This document shows, piece by piece, positions 18,589 through 42,395 of a stretch of 45,633 nucleotides of DNA; positions within the stretch are counted from its first letter, which is position 1, and every line of letters begins with the position of its first letter. Source of the DNA: Anaerolineae bacterium. GTDB lineage: Bacteria > Chloroflexota > Anaerolineae > Anaerolineales > Villigracilaceae. The translations under genes were made by a program, and so were the position numbers. The notes beneath the pieces are model-generated. The model saw nothing but the letters and a program-made list of their open reading frames with translations, was not told the origin of the DNA and ran no database searches. The stretch is taken from assembly GCA_018645405.1 (NCBI GenBank), contig JABGOQ010000062.1, positions 1 to 45,633 on the forward strand, written 5' to 3'.

Positions 18589-19971
18589 ATGTCCACCCTT
18601 CTCGTAAAAAACGCTACAATATTAGTTACGATGGACGACCATCAACGTGAAATCGCGTCTGGTGGTCTTTTTATTCGTGACGGGTTTATAGAGCAAGTTG
18701 GCACCACCGCAGAACTCCCCAAAACAGCCGATGAAGTGCTTGATTTAAAGGGACATATCCTCTTACCGGGATTAGTCAACACCCATCATCATTTTTACCA
18801 AACCCTTACGCGCGTTGTCCCCCCCGCACAAGATGCCAATCTCTTTAATTGGCTCAAAACCCTCTATCCAATTTGGGCGCGACTGACGCCCGAAGATATT
18901 TACACATCCACCCAAACAGCCTTAGCAGAACTCGCCTTTTCAGGATGCACAACTGCCTCTGACCATCTCTACCTCTTTCCAAACGGTAGCAAGCTGGATG
19001 ACGAGATTGACGCCGCAAAAGAAATCGGGATGCGTCTCCATGCCTCCCGCGGCTCGATGAGTCTCAGCGAAAAAGATGGCGGGCTTCCCCCCGATTCGGT
19101 TGTAGATACAGAAGAAGCTATTCTAAAAGATTCCCAACGTCTCATTGAGCGTTATCATGATGCCAAAGCTGGCTCAATGACACAAATCGTGCTTGCGCCT
19201 TGCTCCCCTTTTAGCGTTACATCTGAGCTAATGAAGCAATCGGCAAATTTAGCAAGAGAATATGGGGTGCAACTCCATACCCATCTCGCCGAAACCGAAG
19301 ATGAAGAACAATTCTGCCTTGATATGTTCGGGCATCGTCCCGTTGACTATATGAAGGAAGTCGGCTGGATAGATGGTGATGTTTGGTTCGCCCACTCAGT
19401 TTACGTCAATGAAGATGAAATTGACCTATATGCTAAACATAATTGTGGCATAGCTCACTGTCCCACATCCAATATGCGACTTGCCTCCGGTATCGCCCCC
19501 ATCAAAGAAATGCTCGCCGCTGGCGTGGACGTTGGCATCGGCGTGGATGGTTCTGCCTCCAACGACGGCTCACATCTGCTCGGCGAAGCACGGCAGGCGA
19601 TGTTGGTGGCTCGTGTCAAAGAAGGCATTACTGGATATTCACTCTCCAGTGATAATCGCAAATTAATGACTGCACGCGATGCCCTGCATCTCGCCACACG
19701 TGGCGGCGCAAATGTTTTAGGCCGTCCTGACATCGGCTCTCTCGAAGTTGGTAAAGTCGCCGATTTCTTCGCGATTAAATTAAACACCCTTGATTACGCA
19801 GGCGCATTGCACGATCCAGTTGCCGCAACCATTTTTGCTCACCCGGTCAAATCGGCCTACACGGTTGTAAACGGCAAATTTGTTGTTAAAGAGGGGCAAT
19901 TGGTCAATGTGGATGAAGCAAAATTAATCGAAAAACATAATAAAGCTGCAACAAAACTCTTAGCGGGCTGA
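18589..19971 (+). CDS. 8-oxoguanine deaminase (amidohydrolase superfamily)
   Basis: The 460-aa metal-dependent deaminase has H66-x-H68 in NTHHHFYQTLTR, H232 in HTHLAETEDEE, H269 in FAHSVYV and D320 in VGIGVDGSASND, the full cog0402-type site. The combination HHHFYQTLTRVVPPAQ with CPTSNMRLASG is characteristic of 8-oxoguanine deaminase (8-oxoguanine to urate plus ammonia) rather than guanine deaminase. SsnA, encoded in the related E. coli cluster, belongs to the same superfamily and is the main alternative. It is the first gene after the operator-flanked promoter. A spacer of 57 bases, rich in ACTTTAAACTTACAACTT-type repeats, separates it from the adenine deaminase gene. Confidence 0.88.
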   Translation: MSTLLVKNATILVTMDDHQREIASGGLFIRDGFIEQVGTTAELPKTADEVLDLKGHILLPGLVNTHHHFYQTLTRVVPPAQDANLFNWLKTLYPIWARLTPEDIYTSTQTALAELAFSGCTTASDHLYLFPNGSKLDDEIDAAKEIGMRLHASRGSMSLSEKDGGLPPDSVVDTEEAILKDSQRLIERYHDAKAGSMTQIVLAPCSPFSVTSELMKQSANLAREYGVQLHTHLAETEDEEQFCLDMFGHRPVDYMKEVGWIDGDVWFAHSVYVNEDEIDLYAKHNCGIAHCPTSNMRLASGIAPIKEMLAAGVDVGIGVDGSASNDGSHLLGEARQAMLVARVKEGITGYSLSSDNRKLMTARDALHLATRGGANVLGRPDIGSLEVGKVADFFAIKLNTLDYAGALHDPVAATIFAHPVKSAYTVVNGKFVVKEGQLVNVDEAKLIEKHNKAATKLLAG

Positions 19972-20028
19972 AAGTTCTAACCTTCGAAGATTCAAACCTT
20001 AGACTTTAAACTTACAACTTAAAAAACT

Positions 20029-21816
20029 ATGACATCATCTCTCCCCCTCACTAAAAAGCTCGTCAACGTCGCCATGGGGCGCGAAACTGCCGACATCGTT
20101 ATTCGTAACGGTGTTTGGGTTAGCGTCCAATCTGGCGAATTCATCCCCAATACCGACATCGCCATCGTAGATGGGCATATTGCCTTCGTTGGCAAAGATG
20201 CCTCGCATACAGTATCGAAAGATACCATCGTCATTGATGCGGGTGGCAAATACCTGGTCCCCGGTCTGCTCGATGGGCATATGCATGTTGAGTCTGGGAT
20301 GGTGACAGTCACCGAGTTTGTGCGCGCTGTTGCCAAACGCGGCACGACAGGTATGTTTATTGACCCGCATGAAATCGCGAATGTTTTTGGGCTCAAGGGC
20401 GTCAAGCTGATGGTTGATGAAGCTGCTAAACAGCCCATCCATGTTTGGGTACAGATGCCTTCTTGTGTCCCTTCCGCACCAGGATTTGAAACCCCGGGTG
20501 CAGAAATTACACCCGATGACGTTGCTGAAGCGATGACATGGGATGGCATTATCGGTCTCGGTGAAGTGATGGATTTCCCTGGTGTTTTCAACGCCAGCGA
20601 GAAGATGATGGCAGAAATTGCCGCCGCTCGTGATGCTGGCAAAGTAATTGGCGGGCATTATCCTAATCTCGATATAGGTAGGGATTTTCACGGTTATGCC
20701 GCTGCCGGTATTGAAGATGATCACGAAGGCACGCGCCCCGAAGATGCTATTGCCCGTGTTCGTCAGGGCATGAAAGCCATGCTTCGTTATGGCTCTGGCT
20801 GGCTGGATGTGGAAACTCAAGTGGATGCGATTCTCAAACATAAATTGGACCCGCGCCGCTTCTTGCTTTGTACGGATGATTCACATGTAGGCACTCTCGC
20901 AAATGATGGACATATGGATAGAGTGCTGCGCCACGCTCTTGACGTGGGCTTGCCTCCGTTAACTGCGATTCAGATGATGACAATTAACACCGCAGAGCAT
21001 TTCGGTTTATCCCGTGAAATCGGGATGATCGCCCCCGGTCGTTGGGCAGATATACTTTTAGTCGATGACTTGAACGATTTTCATCCTGATATGGTCATCG
21101 CCAAAGGAAAAGTTATCGCAGAAAATGGTGAGTTGACGATAGAAATGCCACAGATCGAGTATCCAGCTTGGGCACGGGATTCTATCCACTTGGCTCACCC
21201 GCTTGGGGCGCAGGATTTTGTTTTGGAAACGGAAGCAAGTTCGGGCAAGAGCGTTACAGCGAACGTCATAGGTGTTATCGAAAATCAGGCTCCGACAAAA
21301 CATCTTAAGATAAAAATCCAGCCGAAAGATGGAGAAATCCAAGTAGATATTGAACGAGATATTGCAAAATTGGCTGTTGTAGAACGTCATAAATCCACGG
21401 GTAGAGTGAATGTCTCTCTGGTTAGCGGATTTGGTTTCACTGAAAAATGCGGTATTGCATCTACTTTTTCGCATGATAGTCATAATATCATCGTGACAGG
21501 AACGAGCGAAGAAGATATGGCGATTGCGGTGAATAAACTTACTGAGGTTGGTGGGGGGCAGGTGGTTGTGAAAGATGGCGAAGTGATTGGGCAAGTTGAG
21601 TTAGAGATTGCTGGGCTGATGTCTACAGAAGAGGCTTCGATTGTGTCAGAAAAGGCAACTTCTGTTTTGAATGGTTTTAAGGCTTGCGGTTGTACGCTGA
21701 ATAATCCCAATATGCAGTTTTCTTTACTTTCTTTGGTCGTTATCCCTGAGCTAAGAATTTCAGATTTAGGCTTGGTTGATGTGACAAAGTTTGAGTTTGT
21801 GCCAGTTATAGAATAG
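20029..21816 (+). CDS. ade: Adenine deaminase
   Basis: The 595-aa enzyme converts adenine to hypoxanthine and ammonia. It has the family opening LVNVAMGRETADIVIRNG, metal site GHMHVES (H84, H86, E88), IDPHEIANVFG, GHYPNL and LCTDDSH. The C-terminal domain carries VERHKSTGRVNVSLVSGFGF and GSEEDMAIAVN-like text typical of bacterial Ade. Length matches the family. No ribosome binding site is obvious before ATG 20029, but the N-terminus fits homologues. The product would feed the xanthine dehydrogenase encoded at 39813-42395. Confidence 0.95.
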   Translation: MTSSLPLTKKLVNVAMGRETADIVIRNGVWVSVQSGEFIPNTDIAIVDGHIAFVGKDASHTVSKDTIVIDAGGKYLVPGLLDGHMHVESGMVTVTEFVRAVAKRGTTGMFIDPHEIANVFGLKGVKLMVDEAAKQPIHVWVQMPSCVPSAPGFETPGAEITPDDVAEAMTWDGIIGLGEVMDFPGVFNASEKMMAEIAAARDAGKVIGGHYPNLDIGRDFHGYAAAGIEDDHEGTRPEDAIARVRQGMKAMLRYGSGWLDVETQVDAILKHKLDPRRFLLCTDDSHVGTLANDGHMDRVLRHALDVGLPPLTAIQMMTINTAEHFGLSREIGMIAPGRWADILLVDDLNDFHPDMVIAKGKVIAENGELTIEMPQIEYPAWARDSIHLAHPLGAQDFVLETEASSGKSVTANVIGVIENQAPTKHLKIKIQPKDGEIQVDIERDIAKLAVVERHKSTGRVNVSLVSGFGFTEKCGIASTFSHDSHNIIVTGTSEEDMAIAVNKLTEVGGGQVVVKDGEVIGQVELEIAGLMSTEEASIVSEKATSVLNGFKACGCTLNNPNMQFSLLSLVVIPELRISDLGLVDVTKFEFVPVIE

Positions 21817-21917
21817 ATGTGCACTGCATTTGAAAAATGCGTTGCACATCGGGTCTAGCAAAATGAGCGATTTTTAGAGACTTAAACTGCAACGCATCTG
21901 CTAGATGCAATGCAGTT
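21816..21917. repeat. Double hairpin between adenine deaminase and GntR genes
   Basis: Two related hairpins stand here. The first (21816-21850) has arms of 16 bases around GAA with two mismatches. The second (21885-21917) has arms of 15 bases around GCT with two mismatches. Both contain TGCAACGCAT/ATGCGTTGCA-like text, so they look like two copies of one REP-type unit. The first overlaps the last base of the ade stop codon. Confidence 0.65.
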
Positions 21918-21932
21918 CTAAGAGGAATTATT

Positions 21933-22649
21933 ATGGTTTTATCAACACCTTTTCAACAATTACAAAGCAATTTAGGCGAGGTTATTTCTTCTGTTTCGGC
22001 AGGAGAGCGTTTACCTTCTGAACCAAAATTGGCAAAACAATTAGGTGTTTCGCGCGCAACATTGCGCGAAGCAATGCGAACATTTGAGACCCAGGGATTG
22101 ATCCGTCGTCGGCAGGGTGCGGGTACTTTTGTGGTTGGTCAGGCCCCGGTATTGGAAAGCGGGCTTGAAGTTTTAGAAAGTATTCAGACAATGGCAACCC
22201 GCATGGGCTTGAGTGTAGCGGTAAAAAACCTAATGATTGAGACGGTTCCTGCTACTGAGAAGCAAGCCAAGAAATTGGGCGTTCCGCTGAAAACATCCCT
22301 CACACGAGTTGCTCGTGTGATTTGCACAAGTAATCGTGCAGCAGCGTATCTGGTTGACATCTTGCCTGATGAATTTCTTTCTGTGAATGAATTTCCTCAG
22401 GATTTTAAAGGATCTGTACTTGATTTTATGCTCGGGCGCGGAGATTTACCAACAGTGGCAAAGATTGGAGTAAATGCAAGCAGTGCTTCATCTTCTGTGG
22501 CAAAAGCACTTGAAATTCAACGTGGCGATGTTTTGTTGCGCTTGAGTTCACGCATTTATCTTGATTCAGATAAAGTCGTTGATTATAGTTTGGGCTATTT
22601 TTTGCCTGGTTATTTCAACTTTCACATTTTAGGGCAAGTACAATCGTAA
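21933..22649 (+). CDS. GntR-family regulator with UTRA ligand-binding domain
   Basis: The 238-aa protein has a GntR winged helix at about residues 8-68 (RLPSEPKLAKQLGVSRATLREAMRTFETQGLIRRRQGAGTFV). A HutC-type UTRA domain follows (about 85-235), which in relatives binds small carbon or nitrogen metabolites. It sits inside the catabolic gene set and is the most likely ligand-responsive repressor of the promoter at 18500-18528. The sites there resemble the FadR-group consensus rather than the classical HutC one, so the assignment rests on position. A GAGGA ribosome binding site precedes the ATG. Confidence 0.9.
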   Translation: MVLSTPFQQLQSNLGEVISSVSAGERLPSEPKLAKQLGVSRATLREAMRTFETQGLIRRRQGAGTFVVGQAPVLESGLEVLESIQTMATRMGLSVAVKNLMIETVPATEKQAKKLGVPLKTSLTRVARVICTSNRAAAYLVDILPDEFLSVNEFPQDFKGSVLDFMLGRGDLPTVAKIGVNASSASSSVAKALEIQRGDVLLRLSSRIYLDSDKVVDYSLGYFLPGYFNFHILGQVQS

Positions 22650-22692
22650 AATTCGATCGATTAAATTATAAAAAAGAGGAGTTTTGAACAAG

Positions 22693-23934
22693 ATGAAATT
22701 ATCAAAAGAAGAAGCAATTCAGGAAATCAAAAAACGTGTCGATGCAGCGCAAGACGACATCATCCAATTCCTGCGGGATATTGTTGCCATTCCCAGCATG
22801 AATGGTGAGCTAAAAGAAGTTGGCGAGCGTATTGCGGCAGAGATGAACAAATTAGGTTTTGACGAAGTCCGCTTCGATAAAATGGGCAATATCATGGGGC
22901 GTATTGGTGATGGTGAAAAAGTTATCGTCTACGATTCTCATATTGATACAGTTGGCATTGGCGACAGAGATAATTGGGAATGGGATCCATTTATCGGGAA
23001 GGTTGAAGATGGTATTCTTTTTGCACGTGGTGCAGTAGATGAAAAAGGATCGACCCCCGGTATGATATATGGATTAAGCTTCGCTCGTGATTTGGGCTTG
23101 CTCGATGGGATAACAGCTTGGTACTTCGGCAATATGGAAGAATGGTGTGATGGCATTGCCCCGAACACCTTCGTGGAAGTAGACCCTGGCATCCGTCCTG
23201 ACTTTGTTGTTATTGGCGAACCGACCAAAATGCAAGTCTATCGCGGTCATAAAGGTCGTATCGAATTAAAGATCACCGCTTCTGGACGCTCAGCCCATGC
23301 AGCAACCCATTATTTAGGCGATAATGCTGTCTATAAGATGATGGCAGTTATCACGCAAATTCGTGAGTTAGACCGCCGCCTTCGTCTTGGCTTAGGCTCT
23401 CACCCTTTGCAAGGTAACCCCACTGTTGCCGTAACAGACCTTAAAGTGACAACGGCTTCGCTTAATGCTGTTCCTAATGAATTTTCAATTTATCTTGACC
23501 GTCGTATCACTTCAAATGAACCTCACGATGATGTGATTGCGCAGATCAAAGGTTTGATTCCTGATTATCTACAAGATGAGATCAAGATAGAAGAGCTCTT
23601 TTATGATGAACCATCCTACACAGGATTCAAATTCCCTGTATCGAAGTATTACCCCGCCTGGTTGCAGGCAGATGACCACCCCATGACCCAAGCAGGGCAA
23701 AACACAATCAAAGCCCTTTGGGGTGAAGAACGTGAGTTAGATACTTGGGATTTTTCAACCAATGGCACTTATTGGGCTGGTAAGGCAGGAATCCCTGCTA
23801 TTGGTTTTGGTCCTGGCGATGAAAAATTTGCACACAGAGGTATGGAACAAGTGCCATTGAAAGAAGTTGTAGAAGCTACAGAGTTTTATGCTTTATTCCC
23901 CCAAATTTTATCTGAAAAGATGCTGGAGAAATAA
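22693..23934 (+). CDS. ygeY: YgeY-type M20 family hydrolase
   Basis: The 413-aa di-metal M20 amidohydrolase has H83 in DSHIDTVG, D116 in GAVDEKGS, the catalytic/metal pair E149-E150 in NMEEWCDG, and a distal H in FAHRGMEQVP. The ARGAVDEKGSTPGMIYGL and EEWCDG text matches the YgeY group, which co-occurs with selenium-dependent molybdenum hydroxylase genes and with anaerobic urate-degradation clusters. It probably hydrolyses an N-carbamoyl or peptide-like intermediate of purine ring breakdown. The start is ATG 22693, 11 bases after GAGGAG; TTG 22684 would be too close to that site. Confidence 0.9.
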   Translation: MKLSKEEAIQEIKKRVDAAQDDIIQFLRDIVAIPSMNGELKEVGERIAAEMNKLGFDEVRFDKMGNIMGRIGDGEKVIVYDSHIDTVGIGDRDNWEWDPFIGKVEDGILFARGAVDEKGSTPGMIYGLSFARDLGLLDGITAWYFGNMEEWCDGIAPNTFVEVDPGIRPDFVVIGEPTKMQVYRGHKGRIELKITASGRSAHAATHYLGDNAVYKMMAVITQIRELDRRLRLGLGSHPLQGNPTVAVTDLKVTTASLNAVPNEFSIYLDRRITSNEPHDDVIAQIKGLIPDYLQDEIKIEELFYDEPSYTGFKFPVSKYYPAWLQADDHPMTQAGQNTIKALWGEERELDTWDFSTNGTYWAGKAGIPAIGFGPGDEKFAHRGMEQVPLKEVVEATEFYALFPQILSEKMLEK

Positions 23935-23986: not shown

Positions 23987-24940
23987 ATGCGTAGTTTTGC
24001 AGGTCGTGACATTTTGTCACTCAAAGAATTCGAACGAAATGAGTTTTACCGTGTATTTGAAGTAGCCGAAGAATTGGAGCCTATTGCTCGCAATCGTCAG
24101 AATATTGATCTTTTATCTGACAAAACTTTGGTAACCGCTTTCTATCAACCTTCCACTCGCACCCGCTTGGCACATGAATCTGCCATGCACCGCTTGGGTG
24201 GTCATGTCACAGGTTTCTCTGATGCAAAAATGACCCGTGCTGGCGATTTCTATCTGGAATCGATCAAAGATACCTTCAAGATGTTGGAATATTACGGCGA
24301 TATGATTGTAACGCGCCACTTCCAGCAAGGTGCTCCACATGAAGCAGCAAAATGGGCATCTGTACCTATTATCAACGGTGGTGACGGCTGGGGCGAACAT
24401 CCCACTCAGGTTTTGACCGATCTTTATACAGTGCTACGCTCAAAAGGTACTCTTGACGGTTTACGCTGGGTTGCTGTTGGTGATATGCGAATGCGCACTA
24501 TGCATTCACTTGGCTATGCTTTGACCCAATTCGATTGCCCGATTACTTTCGTAGCCCCTCCCGGCATGGAAATGCCCGAAGAATACGAAAAAGACTTCGA
24601 TGCAATGGCTTTAAATTATAGCTATGCCGAACACGTTGGTGATGTCATCGCTGATGCCGATGTGATTCTCGTAGAGCCAACCGTTCAGCCTGATTACACC
24701 AAATCACGCGATGAGCGTTCTGGTGAACTCCCCACCACGCCTGATAATTATAAAATCACCCGTGACCTTCTCGTCAACAAAGCCAAATCAGATGCAATCT
24801 TGCTCCACTCCCTGCCCCGCATGGATGAAATCCCATCCGATGTGGATATTACCCGCTGGTCACGTTATTGGCAGGAAGCATTCAACGGTGTTGTAATGCG
24901 CATGGCATTGCTCGCATTGATTTCTGGGAAGATGGAATAA
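23987..24940 (+). CDS. Aspartate-carbamoyltransferase-like protein of unknown acceptor
   Basis: The 317-aa ATCase/OTCase fold protein keeps the carbamoyl-phosphate site: STRTR (56-60), R110-H111, HPTQ (138-141) and HSLPR (274-278). The R of MRTMHSL (R170, equivalent to E. coli R167) is also kept. In contrast, the 80s-loop KKGE is RAGD (84-87), so E. coli K84 becomes A. The region aligned with TRVQ reads TVQ, so R229 becomes T232. K84 and R229 contact the aspartate side chain in true ATCase, so another acceptor is likely. It sits between YgeY- and YgeW-type genes. The start is ATG 23987 behind AGGAGG; the open frame extends upstream without support. Confidence 0.85.
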   Translation: MRSFAGRDILSLKEFERNEFYRVFEVAEELEPIARNRQNIDLLSDKTLVTAFYQPSTRTRLAHESAMHRLGGHVTGFSDAKMTRAGDFYLESIKDTFKMLEYYGDMIVTRHFQQGAPHEAAKWASVPIINGGDGWGEHPTQVLTDLYTVLRSKGTLDGLRWVAVGDMRMRTMHSLGYALTQFDCPITFVAPPGMEMPEEYEKDFDAMALNYSYAEHVGDVIADADVILVEPTVQPDYTKSRDERSGELPTTPDNYKITRDLLVNKAKSDAILLHSLPRMDEIPSDVDITRWSRYWQEAFNGVVMRMALLALISGKME

Positions 24941-25191: not shown

Positions 25192-26172
25192 ATGCAATCA
25201 GATTTACGAGGCAGAGACCTCATTGGCGATCTCGACTTCACCAAAGAAGAAGTCGAAACTATTTTAGATGTAGCTTGGGATTTGAAGAAAAAACGTGCAT
25301 TGGGAGAATCTCACGCCTATTTGCGCGATAAAACTTTAGCAATGCTTTTCTTCTTCTCCAGTACACGCACCCGTGGCTCATTTGAGTCTGGAATGGCACA
25401 ATTGGGCGGTCATGCCGCTTTTATCGAAAGCCGCACCACCCAAATCTCACACGGCGATACAGAAACTGAAATGGGCGAGATTTTTGGCCGCTATTTCGAT
25501 GGCATTGCCATCCGCCACGTGGACTGGGGCATCGGCAATCGTTATTTGAACTTGGTCGCTAGCGCATCCCGCGTCCCTGTATTGAATATGCAATGCGAAA
25601 TTTATCACCCACACCAATGTTTGGCAGATATTATGACCATCATCGAGAAGAAAGGTCGTAACCTGAAACGCAAGAAAATGGTCGTTTCTTGGGCGTATGC
25701 TTCTTCTTATCTGAAACCGATTTCCGTCCCGCAATCGCTTATTTTACAAATGCCGCGTTTCGGTCTGGATGTAGTTCTCGCACATCCGCCTGAGTTCAAA
25801 TTGATGCCTGAGATCATGGAGCAAGCCAAAGAACAAGCTCGTCTCGCTGGTGCTGGTTTTGAAGTCACCGATGATATGGAAGCCGCCTTCAAAGACGCAG
25901 ACATCGTCTATGCAAAATCCTGGGGTCCTCTATTGACCACCCAAGATCCCGACGAAGGCAAAGCCATCCAAGATAAATACTCGCATTGGATTACCGACCA
26001 ACGCAAAATGGATTTGGCAAAACCGGATGCCATTTATATGCACCCCCTCCCCGCTGACCGTGATGTAGAAGTCACCAGCGAAGTGATGGATGGACCGAAT
26101 TCAGTCGTCTTTGATCAAGCCGAAAACCGCATGCACGCACAAAAAGCGGTTATGGCATTGACAATGAGATAG
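25192..26172 (+). CDS. ygeW: YgeW-type knotted carbamoyltransferase
   Basis: The 326-aa transcarbamoylase has carbamoyl-phosphate motif SSTRTR (56-61), HPHQ (139-142) and MHPLPADRD (283-291). The segment WAYASSYLKPISVPQS (167-182) matches the proline-bearing loop of knotted transcarbamoylases such as YgeW and N-acetyl/N-succinylornithine carbamoyltransferases, and replaces the ordinary OTCase arrangement. The C-terminus DQAENRMHAQKAVMALT is typical. The acceptor of YgeW is not established to my knowledge. With carbamate kinase directly downstream it most likely runs towards carbamoyl phosphate. The protein is shorter than E. coli YgeW (about 396 aa). An AAGGAG site precedes the ATG. Confidence 0.88.
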   Translation: MQSDLRGRDLIGDLDFTKEEVETILDVAWDLKKKRALGESHAYLRDKTLAMLFFFSSTRTRGSFESGMAQLGGHAAFIESRTTQISHGDTETEMGEIFGRYFDGIAIRHVDWGIGNRYLNLVASASRVPVLNMQCEIYHPHQCLADIMTIIEKKGRNLKRKKMVVSWAYASSYLKPISVPQSLILQMPRFGLDVVLAHPPEFKLMPEIMEQAKEQARLAGAGFEVTDDMEAAFKDADIVYAKSWGPLLTTQDPDEGKAIQDKYSHWITDQRKMDLAKPDAIYMHPLPADRDVEVTSEVMDGPNSVVFDQAENRMHAQKAVMALTMR

Positions 26173-26240: not shown

Positions 26241-27185
26241 ATGACAGAAAAAAAAGTAGCCGTCCTCGCTGTAGGCGGGAACGCGCTAATTGTAGATAAA
26301 ACGAAAAAATCAATCCCCGACCAATTTGACGCTGTCAAAGAGACGATGAGCCATATTGCCGGGATGATTGAAGATGGCTGGGATGTCGTCATCACGCATG
26401 GTAACGGCCCTCAAGTTGGCTTCATTTTACGCCGCTCAGAGTTGTCTCTTGACGAACTGCACCCTGTGCCGATGGATTACGCTGGTGCAGATACACAAGG
26501 CGCAATTGGTTATATGGCGCAAAAAGCCCTTCGTAATGAATTCAAAAAACGCGGCATTGATAAAACAGCCCTCACCGTTGTCACGCAAGTCCAAGTTGAC
26601 GCTGCTGACCCCGCTTTCCAGAAGCCTGCCAAACCCGTTGGTTCCTTCCTTGATGAAGCCACAGCCAAAGAACGCATGGCATTAGGACAAAACTTCGTTG
26701 AAGATGCTGGTCGTGGCTGGCGCAGAGTTGTCCCCTCCCCATTGCCCATGAATATCGTCGAAGTAGATGCCATCAAAAAGCTGATTGAGGGCGGATTCTC
26801 CGTTATCGCGGTTGGCGGTGGCGGGATCCCCGTTATAGAGAAAGAAAACGGCAATTTGCGCGGCGTAGAAGCTGTGATTGATAAAGATTTTGCCTCTGGC
26901 TTACTTGCCAACAACATCAACGCCGATTTGCTCATCATCTCTACCGCAGTCGAAAAAATTGCCATCAACTTTGGCAAGGATAACCAAGAATGGCTCGATG
27001 AAATGACCGTAGCTGAAGCTGAGAAATACATCGAAGAAGGTCATTTTGCCCCCGGCAGTATGCTCCCCAAAGTTCAGGCAATTGTCAAATTCCTGAAAGA
27101 AGGTGGCAAAAAAGCCCTCGTGACAGATCCACCAAATATCCAACGTGCCCTCAATGGTGAAACGGGTACTTGGATCGTTCCCTAA
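26241..27185 (+). CDS. arcC: Carbamate kinase
   Basis: The 314-aa enzyme converts carbamoyl phosphate plus ADP to ATP and carbamate, which decays to ammonia and CO2. Family motifs are VLAVGGNALI at the N-terminus, VITHGNGPQVGFILRRSEL, PMDYAGADTQGAIGYM, GRGWRRVVPSP and VAVGGGGIPVI. Length is normal. In E. coli the equivalent position in the cluster is taken by YqeA. Here it follows two transcarbamoylases and would give the energy yield of the pathway. A GAGGA ribosome binding site lies upstream; the palindrome at 27199-27223 follows. Confidence 0.96.
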   Translation: MTEKKVAVLAVGGNALIVDKTKKSIPDQFDAVKETMSHIAGMIEDGWDVVITHGNGPQVGFILRRSELSLDELHPVPMDYAGADTQGAIGYMAQKALRNEFKKRGIDKTALTVVTQVQVDAADPAFQKPAKPVGSFLDEATAKERMALGQNFVEDAGRGWRRVVPSPLPMNIVEVDAIKKLIEGGFSVIAVGGGGIPVIEKENGNLRGVEAVIDKDFASGLLANNINADLLIISTAVEKIAINFGKDNQEWLDEMTVAEAEKYIEEGHFAPGSMLPKVQAIVKFLKEGGKKALVTDPPNIQRALNGETGTWIVP

Positions 27186-27231: not shown

Positions 27232-29241
27232 ATGAAACGTATTCTCGCTTTCATCTCCTCTCCTCTCCTCATCCTCGCTGCTATCACCGCCCTCGCCTAC
27301 GGCATCCTCGCGCCCCAGCTTGGCTTCTACTGGGACGACCTCCCTATAGGATGGATTCGCTACGAACTCGGTCAAGAAGCCCTCACCCAATACTTCTCCA
27401 CAAACCGTCCCGCATGGGGAATATGGTACGGCATCCTCACAAAACTTATCCCCTACAAACCCCTTTATTGGCAAATATTCGCCCTCTTTTGGCGTTGGCT
27501 CACTGCCATCCTTTTTTTTGGCATTCTCCGTCAACTTTTCCCCGCTCGTAAAAATCTTGCCCTCGCCTCAGCTCTCCTTTTTCTCCTCTACACCGGCTTC
27601 AACCAGCAATTCGTCTCCTTTGTTTACGGCTATCATTTCACCACTTATTCGCTTTTTCTTTTTTCACTTCTTGCCATGTTATGGGGAATCAAAAAATCGC
27701 ACTTCATCTATTTAGGATTAATCGCATCAGCCTTAAATCTCATTATGGGAGAATATTTTTTTGCTTTGGATTTGATTCGTCCCCTGTTGCTTTGGATTGC
27801 CTTTAATCATATTGCTGATTCCAAACAACGGATTTCGCGCGTGTTTTCAACTTGGTTGCCCTACTTCGGCGTTTTCTCCCTTATGGTGCTTGGGCGTGCC
27901 TTCATCTTCAACAATCAGATTTACGAATACAGCCTCCTCGCTGAACTAAAAACTGCACCCCTTCTTACCATCTGGGCATTAATCAAAACCATCTTCTTTA
28001 GCCTGTGGACAACGCTCATCGCCGCGTGGGGGCAAGCCTTTGTACTCCCAGATTTTGAGTTACAGGGTAAAGTGACAATTACGATTTATCTTGCTATTAT
28101 TTTTATTTCTTTTGGGATGGTGTTGTTTGCGCTTTATAAAAAAAATAATATCATTGCTTCAGAGCAGAAACTGCCTCACAATGACGCACTATTTCTCATT
28201 GCTTTGGGCATCTTCTCTGCTCTCTTTGCAGGAATCCCATTTTGGCTAATTGACTTGCCGGTGTCCCTTGGTTTCCCTGCAAATCGATCAACTTTACCTT
28301 TTATATTAGGCAGTGTTTTCGTTTTAGCTGGTGTCGTTTCGCTTATTCCGCATAAAAATCTGCGCATAGCCTTTTTTGCCATTTTAATAGCCTTCTCTGC
28401 TGGCAGGCAATTTTTATGGGCAGATGAATTTAGACGAGATTGGACAGTCCAAAGAAATCTCTTTTGGCAAATGTCTTGGCGCATCCCCGATTTAGAAGCA
28501 AATACAACTGTTTTGCTCAACGAAGGTGCGCTCAAATTTTATGCTGATAACTCACTGAGTGCACCTCTCAATTGGATTTACGCACCAGATGCGACTGCTG
28601 AAAATATCCCCTTTATGTTATTTTATCCACGCACCCGCTTTGGTGTGGGTGGGAAAAAGCTGGCAGAAAATATGCCCTTAAAGCATGATTTTATTGCTGG
28701 AGAGTTTAACGGAAACACATCTCAGATGCTTTTAATTAACTTCTCTCCACCAGGATGTTTGCATATTATTGACCCTGAAATTGATTCTGAAAACAAATTT
28801 ATCTCCGATTTTCTGCTACGAGATGCCGCTCCCTTTTCTCGCCCAGAGTTGATTTTAGAGCACGACTTGTCGGAGTCAGTTTTACCTGAAATTTATTCAC
28901 CAGAACCCAAGCATGGATGGTGCTATTATTTTCAACAGGCAAGTTTAGCCCGTCAACGTGGGGATTGGGAGCGGGTGGTGAAGTTAAGTGAGAAAGCCTT
29001 CTCTTCTGGTGATCACCCCAATGACCCAACGGAGAATTTTGTCTTTATAGAAGCTTACGCCCACACCAATGCTTGGGGAAACGCCGAGCAACTATCCACA
29101 CGTGCGAAGCAGGTTTCTCCATCCTATATGAAACCTTTACTTTGCCCACTTTGGGAGCGTATAGATGCAGAGACATCTGATAGTTCAGAAAAGGAAGAGA
29201 CGCTATTTCGTGTAACACAAGAATTAGGATGTAAATCATAG
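27232..29241 (+). CDS. Multi-TM glycosyltransferase-like (GT-C-type) membrane protein
   Basis: The 669-aa protein has about ten to eleven hydrophobic helices in the first 400 residues and a C-terminal extracytoplasmic region of about 260 residues that ends in TPR-like helices. An acidic pair D35-D36 (FYWDDLPIG) lies in the first loop after TM1, where GT-C transferases carry their catalytic Asp. A specific family is not recognised. It has no ribosome binding site and its start abuts a palindrome. It has no obvious link to purine catabolism and interrupts the set between carbamate kinase and the importer, suggesting a later insertion or a read-through passenger. Confidence 0.65.
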   Translation: MKRILAFISSPLLILAAITALAYGILAPQLGFYWDDLPIGWIRYELGQEALTQYFSTNRPAWGIWYGILTKLIPYKPLYWQIFALFWRWLTAILFFGILRQLFPARKNLALASALLFLLYTGFNQQFVSFVYGYHFTTYSLFLFSLLAMLWGIKKSHFIYLGLIASALNLIMGEYFFALDLIRPLLLWIAFNHIADSKQRISRVFSTWLPYFGVFSLMVLGRAFIFNNQIYEYSLLAELKTAPLLTIWALIKTIFFSLWTTLIAAWGQAFVLPDFELQGKVTITIYLAIIFISFGMVLFALYKKNNIIASEQKLPHNDALFLIALGIFSALFAGIPFWLIDLPVSLGFPANRSTLPFILGSVFVLAGVVSLIPHKNLRIAFFAILIAFSAGRQFLWADEFRRDWTVQRNLFWQMSWRIPDLEANTTVLLNEGALKFYADNSLSAPLNWIYAPDATAENIPFMLFYPRTRFGVGGKKLAENMPLKHDFIAGEFNGNTSQMLLINFSPPGCLHIIDPEIDSENKFISDFLLRDAAPFSRPELILEHDLSESVLPEIYSPEPKHGWCYYFQQASLARQRGDWERVVKLSEKAFSSGDHPNDPTENFVFIEAYAHTNAWGNAEQLSTRAKQVSPSYMKPLLCPLWERIDAETSDSSEKEETLFRVTQELGCKS

Positions 29242-29366
29242 TTATTTATCCTTTTTATCCTTTATAATACCCTTAGTTTTAGAAGGAGGTAGCCTTATAA
29301 GAACAGTTACGTATAATGCTTATCAAAATATTGATTAGAATTTTAAACCTATTTGAAGGAGAAGAA

Positions 29367-33403: not shown

Positions 33404-34368
33404 TGAACTTAGAAATTATTCTACACGCAGGTCTGGCCACTGGCACGATCCTACTCTTTGCTGCAATCGGTGAAATATTCTCAGAACGCGCGGGCATACT
33501 CAATCTTGGCGTCGAAGGCATGATGCTTCTCGGCGCAATGGCGGGATTCAGCACATCGCTGGCGACTGGTAACGCATGGGTTGGTCTCATCGTTGCCATG
33601 CTTGCAGGAGGGATTTTGAGCCTCGCACATGGTTTGGTAACGATTCACCTCCAGGCAGATCAGGTCGTTAGCGGACTCTCTCTGACCTTTCTTGGTACTG
33701 GGCTTGCTCTCGTTTTAGGAGAGGGTCTTACAGGTCAACATCCACCGACAATCCCCATCGTAGATATCCCTCTGCTCTCCCAAATCCCCTTCCTCGGGAA
33801 AGTTTTCTTCTCCGAACATAGCTTGTTGGTTTATGTGGGCTATATTTTTGCCCCGCTAACAGCCTACTACATCTACAAAACCCGACCTGGGATGCACCTT
33901 CGCGCCGTTGGTGAAAAACCATCTGCCGCAGATACGCTTGGCATCAGTGTTTACGGCGTACGCTACTTCTACACCTTCGTCGGCGGGATGCTGGCAGGGC
34001 TGGCTGGCGCAACAATTAGCCTTGCTATTACGCCCGGCTGGTACTCCACCCAAACCACATCCGGGCAGGGATGGATAGCTGTAGGCTTGGTCATCTTTGC
34101 CCAATGGAATCCGATGCGCGCAGCATTTGGTGGTTATCTCTTCGGCATGCTCCGCAGATTTATCCTCGATTTGCAAGGTCCCGCCGTACTCTTTGGGATA
34201 GCAAATCCGCTCTATGTCAATTCAAATTATGGCTTCTTCCTTCAGATGATGCCTTTCGTCCTGACCATTGTCGCCCTCATCTGGGGCTCTCGCGCCGCCA
34301 CCAAAAAGCGACTCGGTGCCCCCGCCGCCCTCGGCGTGCCCTATATTCGTGGGGAGCGAGGCTTGTAG
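33403..34368 (+). CDS. ABC transporter permease, second subunit (BPD_transp_2)
   Basis: The 321-aa permease has about eight TM helices. Motifs are IGEIFSERAGILNLGVEGMMLLGAM at the N-terminus and GMHLRAVGEKPSAADTLGISV in the coupling loop, as in YufQ/NupQ. The C-terminal helix ends in a short basic cytoplasmic tail. It completes the BMP-type importer. A terminator follows at 34391-34427, marking the end of the importer operon. Confidence 0.95.
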   Translation: MNLEIILHAGLATGTILLFAAIGEIFSERAGILNLGVEGMMLLGAMAGFSTSLATGNAWVGLIVAMLAGGILSLAHGLVTIHLQADQVVSGLSLTFLGTGLALVLGEGLTGQHPPTIPIVDIPLLSQIPFLGKVFFSEHSLLVYVGYIFAPLTAYYIYKTRPGMHLRAVGEKPSAADTLGISVYGVRYFYTFVGGMLAGLAGATISLAITPGWYSTQTTSGQGWIAVGLVIFAQWNPMRAAFGGYLFGMLRRFILDLQGPAVLFGIANPLYVNSNYGFFLQMMPFVLTIVALIWGSRAATKKRLGAPAALGVPYIRGERGL

Positions 34369-35913: not shown

Positions 35914-35915
35914 TC

Positions 35916-37106: not shown

Positions 37107-37249
37107 TGCGATTCTTTTTGAGAAGATATATTAAAAAAGCCTCTCTAAAATTCACATAGGCATACACTTGGGGCGATAAGGTGTCAATCTTGTTTTCAAC
37201 GAGAAGGGCTGGGGAGGCAAAAAGACAAAATGTCGCCTTTATAGGACGT

Positions 37250-37285
37250 AGACTTCGGGATTCTTAAAGCTCCTGAAGTCTTTTT
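37250..37285 (+). terminator. Terminator upstream of the threonine-synthase-like gene
   Basis: AGACTTCGGGA (from 37250) and TCCTGAAGTCT (ending near 37281) form an imperfect stem followed by TTTTTG. It should isolate the next gene from the secreted-protein pair. Confidence 0.7.
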
Positions 37286-37354
37286 GTTCTTGAGAAAGCA
37301 ATGATAAAATACATTCTACAATCTTTTGAAAAACAATCTACTAAAGGTGAAAAA

Positions 37355-38596
37355 ATGAATAACTTTCTTGGCTACCAATGTTCTCTTTGTGATACAAAAT
37401 ATTCTCCTAAAGAAGTAACCTATACCTGCCCGGCTGATGGCGGGAATTTAAACGTTTTGCTTGATTACGAAATGATTAAAGAAAAATATCAGCCCGACGA
37501 TATTACTTGCCGCACAGAAAACTCTCTCTGGCGATATTTACCACTTTTGCCCGTCTCAAACCCTGGCGGGGAAGAAACACCCCTCTATGCCGCAGGTTGG
37601 ACGCCAACTTTTTCTCTCCCCACTTTGGCTGAAAAGCTCGGCTTGGATAATCTCTGGCTGAAAGATGAAAGCTCTAATCCTACGGCCTCGTTCAAAGATC
37701 GCGCCAGTGCGATCTTGGTAGCGCGTGCCAAAGAAATTGGCGCGGAAGTGATCGTGACGGCCTCCACAGGTAATGCGGGCGCGGCTTTGGCAGGGATGTC
37801 TGCTGCGGTTGGGCAAAAGTCGGTTATTTTTGCACCAAAAACAGCTCCTGTAGCAAAGGTGGCTCAATTGCTCATTTTTGGTGCACAGGTAATGCTTGTT
37901 GATGGCACTTATGATGATGCCGTTGAGCTTGCTGTCAAAGCCGCAGATGAGTTTGGTTGGTATTGCCGCAATACGGGCTATAACCCCTTCACAATAGAAG
38001 GAAAGAAGACCGCTGCCTTCGAAATTTGGGAATGGTCGCTTAAGGCGCTTGGTGAAATAGATAAGCCTCTGACAATTTTCGTCTCTGTCGGCGACGGAAA
38101 TATCATCTCTGGTATCCATAAGGGTTTCAAGGATTTGTTGGAATTAGGCTGGCTAAAACAGATGCCGCGCATTTTTGGTGTGCAGGCAAAAGGTTCTGCC
38201 GCGATTGCAAATGCCTATAATGCGGGCACAGAGGAAATCACTCCGATTTCCGCGACAACATCGGCAGATAGCATCTCAGTGGATATGCCTAGCGATGGCG
38301 TACGTGCCGTCCGTGCTGCAACAGAGACGGGCGGGCAATATATCCTTGTTGATGATGATGCGATCATTGCTGCCATAGCAGAACTTGGCAAAGTGGGCGT
38401 TTTTGCAGAACCTGCTGGGGCTACAGCCTATGCCGGTTTAGTGGAAGCCATTTCAAAAGGCGCAGTGAATGCTGATGATCCCATTCTTGTTGTGAATACA
38501 GGTAGTGGTCTCAAAGATGTTGGCGCTGCGCTGAAAGCTGTCACTAAAGCACCGATCATCAGTCCAACTTTGGAGGCTGTGAAAGAAAATCTATGA
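37355..38596 (+). CDS. Threonine-synthase-like PLP enzyme (fold type II)
   Basis: The 413-aa protein has a small N-terminal Cys region (C9xxC12 and C25), then a fold-type II core with likely PLP lysine K114 in NPTASFKDR, STGNAGAALAG, and NTGSGLKDVGAALKA near the end. This is the threonine synthase (ThrC) group, which makes threonine from O-phosphohomoserine. No other threonine-pathway gene is present. Because related fold-type II lyases include diaminopropionate ammonia-lyase (YgeX of the E. coli cluster), a role in catabolic beta-elimination is possible. The start is ATG 37355 behind AAAGGTG. It overlaps the next gene by four bases. Confidence 0.85.
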   Translation: MNNFLGYQCSLCDTKYSPKEVTYTCPADGGNLNVLLDYEMIKEKYQPDDITCRTENSLWRYLPLLPVSNPGGEETPLYAAGWTPTFSLPTLAEKLGLDNLWLKDESSNPTASFKDRASAILVARAKEIGAEVIVTASTGNAGAALAGMSAAVGQKSVIFAPKTAPVAKVAQLLIFGAQVMLVDGTYDDAVELAVKAADEFGWYCRNTGYNPFTIEGKKTAAFEIWEWSLKALGEIDKPLTIFVSVGDGNIISGIHKGFKDLLELGWLKQMPRIFGVQAKGSAAIANAYNAGTEEITPISATTSADSISVDMPSDGVRAVRAATETGGQYILVDDDAIIAAIAELGKVGVFAEPAGATAYAGLVEAISKGAVNADDPILVVNTGSGLKDVGAALKAVTKAPIISPTLEAVKENL

Positions 38597-39726: not shown

Positions 39727-39773
39727 GAATTGAAAGCTATTTTTATTAAAACTTTGCTAAATTCTAAAGAATG

Positions 39774-39813
39774 AAAAAAGAGCGCGGATGAAATTTCATC
39801 CGCGCTCTTTTTT
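39774..39813. terminator. Perfectly symmetrical bidirectional terminator
   Basis: Two 20-base arms (39774-39793, 39794-39813) are exact reverse complements, with A6 and T6 at the ends. It serves the convergent AI-2E and xdh genes and touches the first base of the xdh stop codon. Confidence 0.95.
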
Positions 39814-42395
39814 TAGAGTTTTAGCACTTTGCTTTTTCTCTTCTTCTTCGCCAACTTCATCGGGAACTTTGTCCTGCGTTTTCCATCAAATTGATAGAGC
39901 GCGTTTGCCACTGCCGCGGCAGTTGGTACTAAGCCAATTTCGCCGACTCCTTTCGCCCCGTAAGGTCCTAAGGGGTCAGGGACTTCAACGCCAATCACGT
40001 CTACGGGGGGCATTTCTTTTGCACGCAAAATGCCCAGCTTGCGGAAATTTGTATGGAGAGGAACCCCATCTTCCATTGGCAAATCTTCGCTGACCGCATA
40101 CCCAATCCCCATGTGAACAGCACCTTCTACTTGTCCTTCAAAGAGCATAGGGTTGTAAATCTTCCCTGCGTCATGCGCAGCGGTCACTCTCTCAATTTGC
40201 CCATCATCGTCAATTGCAACGAGTTGCGCCGCGTAGCTGTACGAGTAGTGGGTGATAACTTCATCTACAACAGCGTCTGGTTTTGTTGTCCAGTCTACAA
40301 TCCATTCGCCGAAGTATTCTTTGCCGACCAAATCAGCAAGGGTGTTATTCTTCAAATCTTTGTTTAGCTTCTCGCAGGCATCCAAGAGTGCGTTGCCGAG
40401 CAAGGATGTTGCCCGTGAAGCAGTCGTCATCCCCGCGTTTTGGTCAGATGCGGTATCTACGCGCACGTCAATCAAATCAGGGTGGATGCCGGTTTCGTTG
40501 CAAACGAGTTGACGCGCAATTGTGTTTACGCCTTGCCCCATCTCTGTCCAGCCGTGGTCAATAATGACTTTGTCAGGCGCAACAATCGAAATCAACGCCG
40601 AAGATTCATCGGGCATTCCGTTGCCGATGCCGGTGTTCTTTAATCCACAAGCCAAGCCTGCGTATTTTGTCTTTTCGTAGGCAGGTTTAATCGCTTCGAG
40701 GGCTTTTTGTACCCCAACGCCACCCGCCAAAACTTGGCCCGTTGCCGTCATCGAACCATCCTTCAGTGCATTATCGTAGCGGAACTGCCAGCGGTCGAAT
40801 CCGCCTTGCTCGCAGAGATCGTCAATCGAGCTTTCCATGCCAAAGGTGGCTTGGTTGACACCAAATCCGCGCATGGCACCGCAAGGCAGATTGTTTGTGT
40901 AGACAGCAAAGGCTTCTAAATCCGTTGCGGGGACGTGATACGCCGCAGTCGCATGGCTGGCAATTCTTGTGAGCACCTTTGCGCCTACAGAAGCGTATGC
41001 ACCGGTATCGCCCACAAATCGCGCTTTGATGAAAGTCAATTTACCATCTTTATCACAGCCCAATTCATAATCCATCCAAACCGGATGTCGTTTGGGGTGC
41101 ATGATAATCGATTCGTCTCGTGTGAGATGCACTTTGACGGGCAAGCCAAGCAATTTTGCCATCAATGCGGCGTGACCTTGTACGCTCAAATCTTCTTTAC
41201 CGCCAAATCCGCCGCCGTTTGGCACCAAAATCACGCGTACCTGCTCTTTTGATAAGCCGAGCAATTTTGCAATTTGTATTTGGTCTTCGTAGATCCCCTG
41301 ACTTTGCGAGTAAACTTTCACGCCCTCACCATCGGGCATGGCTACAGCCGCTTCGACTTCCATGAAGGCATGTTCTACGCGTTGCGTTTCGTAAACGCCT
41401 GTTGAGATAAACGCAGAGTTTGCGCGCGCTTCATCCATATCGCCGCGCACAAATACGGGGTGGGATAGGATATTCCCGCCCTCGTGCACTTTCGGGGATT
41501 CGGGAGTCATCGCCGCATGCATATCACTGACGACCTCGAGCGGTTCGTACGTAACCTTGATCTTGCTCATTGCATCACGAGCAATTGCCTCGCTTTCAGC
41601 AACTACGCTTGCGACTACGTCCCCGAGATAGCGAGTGATTTCTCCCTTTTTGAGCATCAGGGGCCAGTCTTGTTGAATTAAGCCGATAGTACGGTCACCC
41701 GGCACATCGTCAGCGGTGAAGATGCGTAGCACGCCTGCCATGCCCTCAACTGCTGAAGAGTCGATATCCAGTATTTTGGCACGGGGGTATTCGCTGAATT
41801 TCAATGCACCGTGTACCATCCCCTCGAAGCGGAGATCATCTGTATATTGATGATCGCCCAGCACCAATTCCCGTGCCTGGTATTTAGGATGCCGTGATCC
41901 CAATTTACCCTCACTGGTCGGGGTGGGGATTTCCTTCTCATCTCGAATGGCTTCTGCTGCATAATCAATCGCTTCAACAACCTTCGTGTAGCCTGTGCAA
42001 CGACAAATATGGGGGGTAAGTGCCTGCTTGATCTGGTCTTCGGTCGGAGTGGGGTTTTTCTTGATGAGCGTATCAGCACGCATGACGATGCCGGGCGTAC
42101 AAAATCCGCATTGAACACCGCCTTTTTCAGCGAAGGCATTGGCGAAAATATCGCGTTTATAATCGCCAAGCCCATCGGGCGTGGTGATACTGGTCTCGCC
42201 GATTTTCTTCATTGGCGTGATGCAAGAGAGCTTGGATTTTCCGTCAATATCCACCGTGCAAGCCCCGCAGTTTGCCTGCCCAGAACAGCCATCTTTGACC
42301 GATGTGATATTTTCGTGCTCGCGTAGATAGGTTAAAAGCGAAATTTCAGGGTCGCCATCGAATTCTTTTTCTTTGCCATTTAGGGAAAATTTCAT
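39813..42395 (-). CDS. xdhD: XdhD-type fused xanthine dehydrogenase (2Fe-2S plus molybdopterin domains)
   Basis: About 860 aa. In numbering from the upstream ATG 42407, the N-terminal domain has cluster cysteines C41, C47, C50, C62 (with a C-x5-C first spacing) and C100, C103, C135, C137 (CGFCTPG, CRCTGY). The molybdenum domain has GGFGGKEDLSVQGH, AMRGFG and GAKGVGEIG with likely catalytic E823. There is no FAD domain. The layout matches XdhD and selenium-dependent xanthine dehydrogenase; no in-frame UGA is needed, since selenium there is a labile cofactor. It would oxidise hypoxanthine/xanthine. I prefer ATG 42395 behind GAGG over ATG 42407. Accessory maturation genes are not in the window. 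Confidence 0.92.
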   Translation of the reverse strand: MKFSLNGKEKEFDGDPEISLLTYLREHENITSVKDGCSGQANCGACTVDIDGKSKLSCITPMKKIGETSITTPDGLGDYKRDIFANAFAEKGGVQCGFCTPGIVMRADTLIKKNPTPTEDQIKQALTPHICRCTGYTKVVEAIDYAAEAIRDEKEIPTPTSEGKLGSRHPKYQARELVLGDHQYTDDLRFEGMVHGALKFSEYPRAKILDIDSSAVEGMAGVLRIFTADDVPGDRTIGLIQQDWPLMLKKGEITRYLGDVVASVVAESEAIARDAMSKIKVTYEPLEVVSDMHAAMTPESPKVHEGGNILSHPVFVRGDMDEARANSAFISTGVYETQRVEHAFMEVEAAVAMPDGEGVKVYSQSQGIYEDQIQIAKLLGLSKEQVRVILVPNGGGFGGKEDLSVQGHAALMAKLLGLPVKVHLTRDESIIMHPKRHPVWMDYELGCDKDGKLTFIKARFVGDTGAYASVGAKVLTRIASHATAAYHVPATDLEAFAVYTNNLPCGAMRGFGVNQATFGMESSIDDLCEQGGFDRWQFRYDNALKDGSMTATGQVLAGGVGVQKALEAIKPAYEKTKYAGLACGLKNTGIGNGMPDESSALISIVAPDKVIIDHGWTEMGQGVNTIARQLVCNETGIHPDLIDVRVDTASDQNAGMTTASRATSLLGNALLDACEKLNKDLKNNTLADLVGKEYFGEWIVDWTTKPDAVVDEVITHYSYSYAAQLVAIDDDGQIERVTAAHDAGKIYNPMLFEGQVEGAVHMGIGYAVSEDLPMEDGVPLHTNFRKLGILRAKEMPPVDVIGVEVPDPLGPYGAKGVGEIGLVPTAAAVANALYQFDGKRRTKFPMKLAKKKRKSKVLKL

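Follow-up and report, generated by a model that had tools for sequence, protein, structure and literature searches.

The window analysed here, 45,633 nucleotides forming the whole of contig C44 (JABGOQ010000062.1) of a 3.9-Mb metagenome-assembled genome (MAG) of an Anaerolineae bacterium (G000; 208 contigs, 96% complete, 5% contaminated), encodes an aspartate carbamoyltransferase (ATCase)-like enzyme, ATCl, together with a compact YgeW-like carbamoyltransferase, OTCl, a carbamate kinase (CK) and a threonine-synthase-like enzyme, ThrCl. The ATCl-OTCl-CK-ThrCl block is real and conserved and is not a chance association. Its best overall explanation, to which we give even chances on the sequence evidence, is a two-transcarbamoylase variant of the reductive urate pathway, in which ATCl and OTCl would each remove one ureido group from the intermediate 2,3-diureidopropionate (DUPA). 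The labels of its relatives indicate that the organism probably belongs to the Chloroflexota: 78 of the 80 best named ATCl loci are labelled as this phylum or as groups that we take to belong to it.

The reductive (yanthine) urate pathway was elucidated in gut bacteria in 2025 and is known from E. coli and C. difficile, with UacX and UacY as the counterparts of YgfK and YgeW. As outlined by Li et al. 2025 (PMC12507026), urate is converted by XdhD to yanthine, by YgfK to dihydroyanthine, by SsnA to ureidomethyl-hydantoin and by HyuA to DUPA; YgeW and YgeY act next, and YgeX then yields pyruvate. In E. coli, YgeW takes one ureido group of DUPA by phosphorolysis and YgeY takes the other by hydrolysis, in an order that is disputed (PMC12990295).

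Conserved linkage of the block

Gene identities were assigned by Pfam and NCBIfam profile searches, and scores are given as bits/cut-off. All four genes of the block lie on the + strand: ATCl at 23987..24940, OTCl at 25192..26172, CK (TIGR00746, 376/358; 52% identical to E. coli YqeA) at 26241..27185, and the pyridoxal-phosphate enzyme ThrCl (PF00291; TIGR00260, 181.5/167) at 37301..38596. Of the 249 genomes of the class that were sampled, 60 (counting that of the window) have ATCl orthologues, 66-86% identical. Two sets of loci were compared. The class set held 59 ATCl loci from 58 of the 60 genomes (G229 contributed two; a contig-end fragment in G032 was left out, as was the window genome, G000, itself), and the named set held 80 loci; 18 of these are on the same contigs as the class set, so that the sets are not independent, and the other 62 were counted separately. 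Identity thresholds for neighbours were 55% for OTCl, 50% for CK, 40% for ThrCl, 60% for YgeY, and 25% for the GntR regulator and the BMP protein; several loci are short contigs, on which the absence of a partner may reflect the contig end.

In the class set, OTCl accompanied ATCl in 57 of 59 loci, CK in 50, ThrCl in 36, a second PALP-family protein (PALP488) in 27, YgeY in 18 and 8-oxoguanine deaminase in 9. The corresponding counts in the 80 named loci were 77, 66, 30, 24, 29 and 42, with adenine deaminase in 41 and BMP in 32; OTCl came after ATCl within 1.5 kb in 72 of the 74 named loci with room for it. The 62 non-overlapping loci gave a similar picture (OTCl 60, CK 52, 8-oxoguanine deaminase 39, adenine deaminase 38, BMP 29, YgeY 22, ThrCl 21, PALP488 15). 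At the same thresholds, OTCl, CK, ThrCl, PALP488, YgeY, SsnA, YgfK, purine deaminases and BMP were found at 0 of 17 control loci around PyrB in ATCl genomes, where matches to any of the xanthine dehydrogenase (XDH) family references occurred at 3 of 17, along with two weak HyuA matches below threshold.

Several relatives carry the block beside homologues of ring-opening genes of the urate pathway. In G031 a single contig has, all on the same strand and with a few other genes interspersed, the order FAD subunit-SsnA-YgfK-PALP488-ThrCl-CK-OTCl-ATCl. The order is ATCl-OTCl-CK-ThrCl-PALP488-SsnA-YgfK in G165 and XDH-YgeY-ATCl-OTCl-CK-ThrCl-PALP488-YgfK in G210; G127 has 8-oxoguanine deaminase, HyuA-like (33%) and adenine deaminase-like (36%) proteins, ATCl-OTCl-CK-ThrCl, a PALP488 relative (44%), SsnA and NpdG. 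SsnA lies about 11 kb or less from ATCl in at least 7 of the 60 ATCl genomes (G165, G039, G127, G137, G237, G031 and G217), and of the 9 ATCl genomes with YgfK, 3 have it no more than 10 kb away; the tail probabilities for such nearness, 1.4e-7 for SsnA and 8e-5 for YgfK, come from a uniform-placement model (windows of 13 and 20 kb on each side) and are a rough guide. Genome-level co-occurrence with SsnA or YgeY was dropped as a test because both occur so often in the class that it has little discriminating power.

Relatives of the 23S_rRNA_IVP family (PF05635) are encoded inside the block in 19 of the 59 class loci, 11 in the OTCl-CK gap and 8 in the ATCl-OTCl gap. They also occur in 16 of the 80 named loci, 14 of them in one of these gaps (the sets overlap), and in 0 of 17 PyrB loci; examples are in L044, L045, L046, L071, L080, L085 and L119:11536-12048, and the two gaps hold distant versions.

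ATCl, an ATCase-like enzyme distinct from PyrB

The genome encodes four proteins of the ornithine carbamoyltransferase (OTCase) family: ATCl, OTCl, a PyrB on C83 and an ArgF on C85. PyrB has TRIQKER and SVSKGES motifs, is 45% identical to E. coli PyrB and is encoded near a PyrC-like open reading frame (ORF) recognised by eye; ArgF has a DTWTSMG motif and is 36% identical to E. coli ArgI. ATCl (317 aa) passed TIGR00670 (246/237) and did not pass NF002032 (216/263). PyrB proteins were only 37-43% identical to ATCl among the matches listed, and when 48 carbamoyltransferases were placed in a tree, all 13 rows for ATCl formed one group (support 100/100). Conservation in family alignments places the ATCl start at MRSF (23987), where the ORF list has 23888, so that the gene does not overlap that for YgeY.

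ATCl has STRT, HPTQ, HSLP and VEP motifs, and keeps the carbamoyl-phosphate residues S52-T55, R105, H134 and Q137, plus R167, in 36 of 36 sequences. This complete site makes a purely structural role unlikely. HSLP replaces HPLP in 35 of 36 sequences, the 240s loop is changed, and the window protein has no RxQxxER; neither R229 nor S80 is kept in any of the 36 sequences, with the reservation that alignment of the 80s and 240s loops is uncertain and that a Gln may be kept. In ATCase, residues of these two loops hold the second carboxylate of aspartate, and an arginine that ATCl retains binds the α-carboxylate. A neutral side chain such as ureidomethyl would suit the ATCl site. Structure models of ATCl and OTCl, of moderate confidence, gave only the expected ATCase and OTC/AOTC folds, and no substrate was read from them.

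ATCl resembles the pseudo-ATCases described by Barba et al. 2013 (PMC4016543), which are likewise ATCase-like with intact STRT and HPTQ motifs and an altered RxQ site. In the three groups set out in that account, subgroup 2 is encoded beside ygeW, xdhABC and hyuA in a single Nocardioides, and subgroup 3 comes from marine bacteria; ATCl combines the HSLP/VxP motif of subgroup 3 with the type of context seen in subgroup 2. Unlike these two subgroups, ATCl is linked to CK and ThrC-like genes and is frequent in one class. The one pseudo-ATCase assayed in that account is the ureidoglycine carbamoyltransferase (UGTCase) of Rubrobacter, Rxyl_2847.

MAGs labelled KSB1 and Lentisphaerae (L140 and L143) also carry ATCl, at 79-80% identity, and in L140 genes for XDH, an SsnA-like protein (43%), ATCl, OTCl, CK and ThrCl lie within 7.8 kb. 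Lateral transfer or misbinned contigs may account for these cases.

OTCl, a compact relative of YgeW

OTCl (326 aa) is 35% identical to E. coli YgeW and groups with it in the carbamoyltransferase tree (support 100/99), a grouping limited by long branches and by the absence of acetylornithine carbamoyltransferase (AOTCase) rows. Seven of the eight second-substrate residues proposed for YgeW (Q98, Q160, S200, K203, K270, D334 and E344) are kept in 37 of 37 OTCl sequences, and five of these seven differ in E. coli ArgI; D124 (V or C in OTCl) and C330 are not kept. The residue list is that given in PMC4581275, where the listed K363 cannot be placed, position 363 being W in the E. coli protein. OTCl shares with YgeW (called YTCase in that paper) the proline-rich loop of the knotted members, a short 80s loop with Gln, and the residues from Q160 to E344 named above; it differs in its length (326 versus 396 aa), in having no 240s-loop insertion and in having HPLP rather than HCLP. 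The confidence of the OTCl model was moderate (pLDDT 77.6). OTCl scored below both YgeW cut-offs (195/453 and 189/500). Despite these low scores and the smaller size, the retained substrate-site residues suggest that OTCl plausibly shares the substrate of YgeW.

The block could instead be arginine-related, with OTCl an AOTCase, YgeY an ArgE-like deacylase and ATCl a spare PyrB. OTCl does score higher with the OTC (254 bits) and AOTC (251) profiles than with the YgeW profile (195), and AOTCase structures are among its best structural matches. Several features make this reading most improbable: genuine ArgF and PyrB are encoded elsewhere, OTCl has a short 80s loop with Gln and an HPLP motif where AOTCase has a long Trp loop and HCLP, and purine deaminases and carbamate kinase are encoded nearby, in a neighbourhood comparison that did not include arg genes.

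Pathway genes elsewhere in the genome

Candidate genes for the ring-opening steps were found on other contigs. YgfK is encoded on C109 (L105:8425-11535; TIGR03315, 1347/835; 44% identical to E. coli YgfK). Within the same 19 kb are genes for an FAD subunit and an XdhD homologue, together with three F420 genes, cofC, cofD and cofE. The XdhD homologue is partial: it is 39% identical to E. coli XdhD and scored 465 bits with TIGR03313 over the truncated piece, the cut-off of 1102 being set for full length. SsnA is on C143 (NF005540, 518/444), and a D-hydantoinase on C47 (TIGR02033, 531/393; 38% identical to E. coli HyuA) is the HyuA candidate, although it may be a general dihydropyrimidinase instead. 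Each of the E. coli proteins YgfK, SsnA, HyuA and XdhD had its counterpart as best match among 18 proteins of the genome. YqeB, a maturation factor that the first-pass annotation had proposed to look for, is encoded on C79; PMC2276186 describes it as a marker of selenium-dependent molybdenum hydroxylases.

Homologues of XdhD, YgfK, SsnA, HyuA, YgeW, YgeY and YqeA are present, and the genome likely encodes a form of the reductive urate pathway of E. coli and C. difficile (PMC12507026). It departs from those organisms in that the genes are spread over several contigs, an extra ATCase-like enzyme is paired with the YgeW-like one, and YgeX was not found; in addition, 8-oxoguanine and adenine deaminases and a BMP importer are attached, and the F420-linked NpdG lies beside SsnA. 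The one-cluster arrangement does not occur in this genome and is largely present in the relatives G031 and G127.

The first-pass annotation had described the region as rearranged, with hyuA, YgeX and YgfK absent. This is true of the window itself. At the scale of the genome it is mostly wrong, because YgfK, SsnA and a hydantoinase lie on other contigs and the pathway is scattered rather than truncated; only YgeX was not found, as detailed below. No single locus was found to hold a complete yge/ygf cluster of the standard kind. The annotation's more general proposal, that anaerobic urate breakdown here takes a distinct form to which enzymes have been added, gains support from the conserved block, and relatives share the combination of ATCl, OTCl, CK and ThrCl.

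A classical oxidative route bears on a further possibility, that ATCl is a UGTCase of the allantoin pathway as in Rubrobacter. That enzyme is also ATCase-like, lies beside CK and purine genes, and phosphorolyses a ureide (PMC4016543), and it belongs to a uricase-allantoin route. Here PF01014 gave no uricase match in the genome, and no allantoinase was found among the six NCBIfam-typed proteins of 14 Amidohydro_1 matches, the other eight being inspected by eye; allantoicase was not searched for. ATCl also has HSLP/VEP motifs, as opposed to the HPLA/AIA given for the Rubrobacter group (PMC4016543), and it is almost always paired with a YgeW-like enzyme. We consider a UGTCase role improbable.

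On C143 (L036:6014-9687), the gene for SsnA precedes those for the NADPH-dependent F420 reductase NpdG (213/150) and for a reductive-dehalogenase-like Fe-S protein (162.5/160); NpdG is also near SsnA in L083, L095, L117 and L173, where the Fe-S protein was not found. An F420-dependent luciferase-family reductase, as proposed for Chloroflexota, was sought and set aside: the genome has one PF00296 protein, with none of the reference proteins in the 15 kb around it. The C109 YgfK scored 1347 bits, the next genome of the class sample reaching 1039, and the gene was perhaps acquired laterally. The tetranucleotide composition of C109 fits the other contigs of the genome (0.971, versus -0.02 to 0.69 for loci of other genomes), a mild test, as the comparison loci are also richer in GC. 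Contig C161 (L029; 1-16007) encodes a deaminase-like and an SsnA-like (257/444) amidohydrolase, XDH subunits, an extracellular solute-binding protein and a second YgeY-like protein (NF009555, 421/321; TIGR03526, 272/321.5); this cluster possibly serves another heterocycle pathway.

YgeY, YgeX and their possible replacements

Searches for YgeY and YgeX used tight limits (E ≤ 1e-95 for TIGR03526 and ≤ 1e-90 for TIGR03528), and at most seven candidates were scored per genome. No YgeY match was obtained at this limit in 23 of the 60 ATCl genomes; these include G127 and G165, in which the cluster is full, as well as G067, G164, G202 and G243, which are nearly complete. A YgeY match was thus present in 37 of the 60, compared with 146 of the 189 genomes without ATCl (Fisher p 0.028, relatedness ignored). 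If ATCl removes the second ureido group then YgeY is not needed, and the 23 YgeY-negative genomes agree with this.

An alternative keeps the standard E. coli order and makes ATCl a side enzyme: OTCl would act as YgeW and YgeY would hydrolyse the other group, with ATCl acting on a related ureide (one derived from pyrimidines or hydantoins, for instance) or serving as a regulator or partner of OTCl. YgeY adjoins ATCl in the window and occurs in 29 of 80 and 18 of 59 loci, and YgeW and YgeY suffice in E. coli as the pathway is outlined in PMC12507026. On the other hand, ATCl and OTCl are still adjacent in the 23 ATCl genomes without a YgeY match, and the complete carbamoyl-phosphate site of ATCl argues against the purely structural form of this alternative. 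We regard the alternative as a whole as rather unlikely but worth keeping in view.

YgeX gave no match at the limit used in the window genome or in any of the 60 ATCl genomes. The class has five genomes of 249 with YgeX matches, at 505-521 bits and so under the cut-off of 532; none of the five has ATCl, and none of the other reference proteins was found near these loci, two of which are on contigs shorter than 9 kb. Among the 18 proteins of the genome compared, ThrCl was the best match to E. coli YgeX (26%). PALP488 belongs to no specific family (its best score was with cysK, 93/351) and stands alone on C180 in this genome. Both are linked PALP-family proteins, and either could act on 2,3-diaminopropionate in place of YgeX.

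ThrCl might also be no more than a linked threonine synthase, with the lyase step carried out by the other PALP protein or by an unlinked enzyme, and to this we give a substantial chance, though one below even. ThrCl passes the TIGR00260 cut-off; 23 of 59 and 50 of 80 loci, some on short contigs, showed no ThrCl in the vicinity of ATCl, and PALP488 is linked in 27 of 59. Against this, ThrCl comes directly after CK in many loci, and the genome has two other ThrC-like ORFs, recognised by eye. A ThrC-like ORF on C90 (L024), also judged by eye, is apparently fused to a C-terminal response-regulator receiver domain.

Proposed pathway and its weaknesses

The two-transcarbamoylase variant would run as follows. 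The window would hold the purine-entry and ureide-cleaving half of the pathway, and other contigs of the same genome the ring-opening half. Adenine deaminase, 8-oxoguanine deaminase and the selenium-type XDH would funnel purines to urate, which the XdhD and YgfK homologues (C109), SsnA (C143) and HyuA (C47) would turn into DUPA. OTCl and ATCl would then each phosphorolyse one ureido group, giving two carbamoyl phosphates; as a guess, ATCl would take the 2-ureido group, since the arginine responsible for α-carboxylate binding in ATCase is conserved in ATCl. CK would use both carbamoyl phosphates, for up to two ATP per urate against the one expected for E. coli, and ThrCl, the PALP488 protein of C180, or both, would replace YgeX in converting 2,3-diaminopropionate to pyruvate and ammonia. 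We hold the double phosphorolysis of DUPA by OTCl and ATCl to be a good hypothesis, close to an even chance. The broader proposition, that ATCl has a new activity in phosphorolysing a ureido group of DUPA or of its mono-ureido product, with YgeY unneeded, ATP at this stage doubled and YgeX replaced independently by a PALP or ThrC-like enzyme, seems to us somewhat short of an even chance.

Several points weigh against this pathway. The main one is that the window genome retains YgeY, which makes ATCl redundant if YgeY acts as it does in E. coli. The 23 YgeY-negative genomes include incomplete MAGs and mutual relatives, so that the p value of 0.028 is optimistic, and chance alone would leave all 60 ATCl genomes without YgeX with a probability of 0.25. 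Most ATCl loci have no SsnA in the stretch read. SsnA (187 of 249) and YgeY (183 of 249) exceed their cut-offs in class genomes with or without ATCl, making co-occurrence at the genome level weak evidence. Matches to YgfK are rare (28 of 249 genomes, 27 of them over the cut-off), and their frequency is not clearly higher in genomes with ATCl (9 of 60) than in the others (19 of 189). Proximity of XDH means little by itself, given the matches near 3 of 17 PyrB controls. The MAG has 5% contamination, and YgfK was found in 0 of 12 other same-family genomes sampled. Lastly, the sequences show family membership, orthology, conserved linkage, the carbamoyl-phosphate sites and the YgeW-like site of OTCl; from these we infer what ATCl, OTCl and ThrCl act on and which reactions they catalyse, as well as the ATP yield and the assignment of ureido groups.

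Other genes of the window

Upstream of ATCl on the + strand are genes for 8-oxoguanine deaminase, which converts 8-oxoguanine to urate (18589..19971; NF006055, 682/532), adenine deaminase, which converts adenine to hypoxanthine (20029..21816; TIGR01178, 532/472.5), a GntR/UTRA protein that is probably the local regulator (21933..22649; PF00392 and PF07702; in 72 of 80 named loci at the loose 25% threshold) and the YgeY-family M20 hydrolase (22684..23934; TIGR03526, 452/321.5; 39% identical to E. coli YgeY). CK is followed on the same strand by a 669-aa protein (27232..29241) with no Pfam or NCBIfam match, a membrane protein by eye, with homologues at 37-48% in some close relatives (L047, L052, L059 and L064). 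Next comes a probable nucleoside or purine importer, also on the + strand, with a BMP/PnrA substrate-binding protein (29316..30641; PF02608; counted at the same loose threshold), an ATP-binding cassette ATPase (30774..32303; NF047930, 466 bits, below the cut-off of 670) and two permeases (32300..33403, NF047929, 179 bits, below 400; 33403..34368, NF047928, 160 bits, below 465). Two proteins without a family over cut-off separate the importer from ThrCl, and an AI-2E-type membrane protein is encoded between ThrCl and the XDH. The XDH (39813..42407, - strand) is of the selenium-dependent type, with fused Fe-S and Mo parts (TIGR03311, 944/830).

The profile scores bear out the 8-oxoguanine deaminase, YgeY, CK, ATCase-like and ThrC-like genes and the BMP importer named in the first-pass annotation, which left adenine deaminase and the GntR/UTRA regulator unnamed. 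Its 'XdhD-type' assignment for the XDH does not hold, as this enzyme fails TIGR03313 (228/1102) and shares 25% identity with XdhD of E. coli. 'YgeW-type' describes the active site and tree position of OTCl and overstates its profile scores. RNA families and tRNAs were searched for in the window and none was found. At 15874-17199 the window encodes a protein with a SLATT domain (NF033634, 60/41), of a kind associated with defence or signalling.

Significance

Published titles and abstracts among open-licence papers yielded no description of a Chloroflexota ATCl-OTCl-CK-ThrC block or of its function. Among the open points that a commentary (PMC12990295) lists for the pathway are the order in which the ureido groups are removed and its age, since it could be of ancient origin or have arisen recently in the gut. 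Genomes with two dedicated carbamoyltransferases and no YgeY found point to organisms in which one can ask how the two groups are divided between the enzymes. MAGs with environmental isolate names (e.g., NC_groundwater, fen, SulCav) carry the block too, so that it does not look like a gut speciality. Relatedly, Li et al. 2025 describe Chloroflexota SsnA clusters as having an F420-type reductase and no YgfK or UacX (PMC12507026); the YgfK matches in 28 of 249 class genomes, near ATCl in three, contrast with that description.

The block is a real, conserved variant of this recently described pathway, and probably a functional one. If the proposed reactions are right, ATCl would represent a new activity in a textbook enzyme family, and probable pyrB misannotations would be corrected. 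The block would also offer a higher-energy module for urate-degrading strains, and urate fermentation in Chloroflexota would conserve both ureido groups as carbamoyl phosphate.

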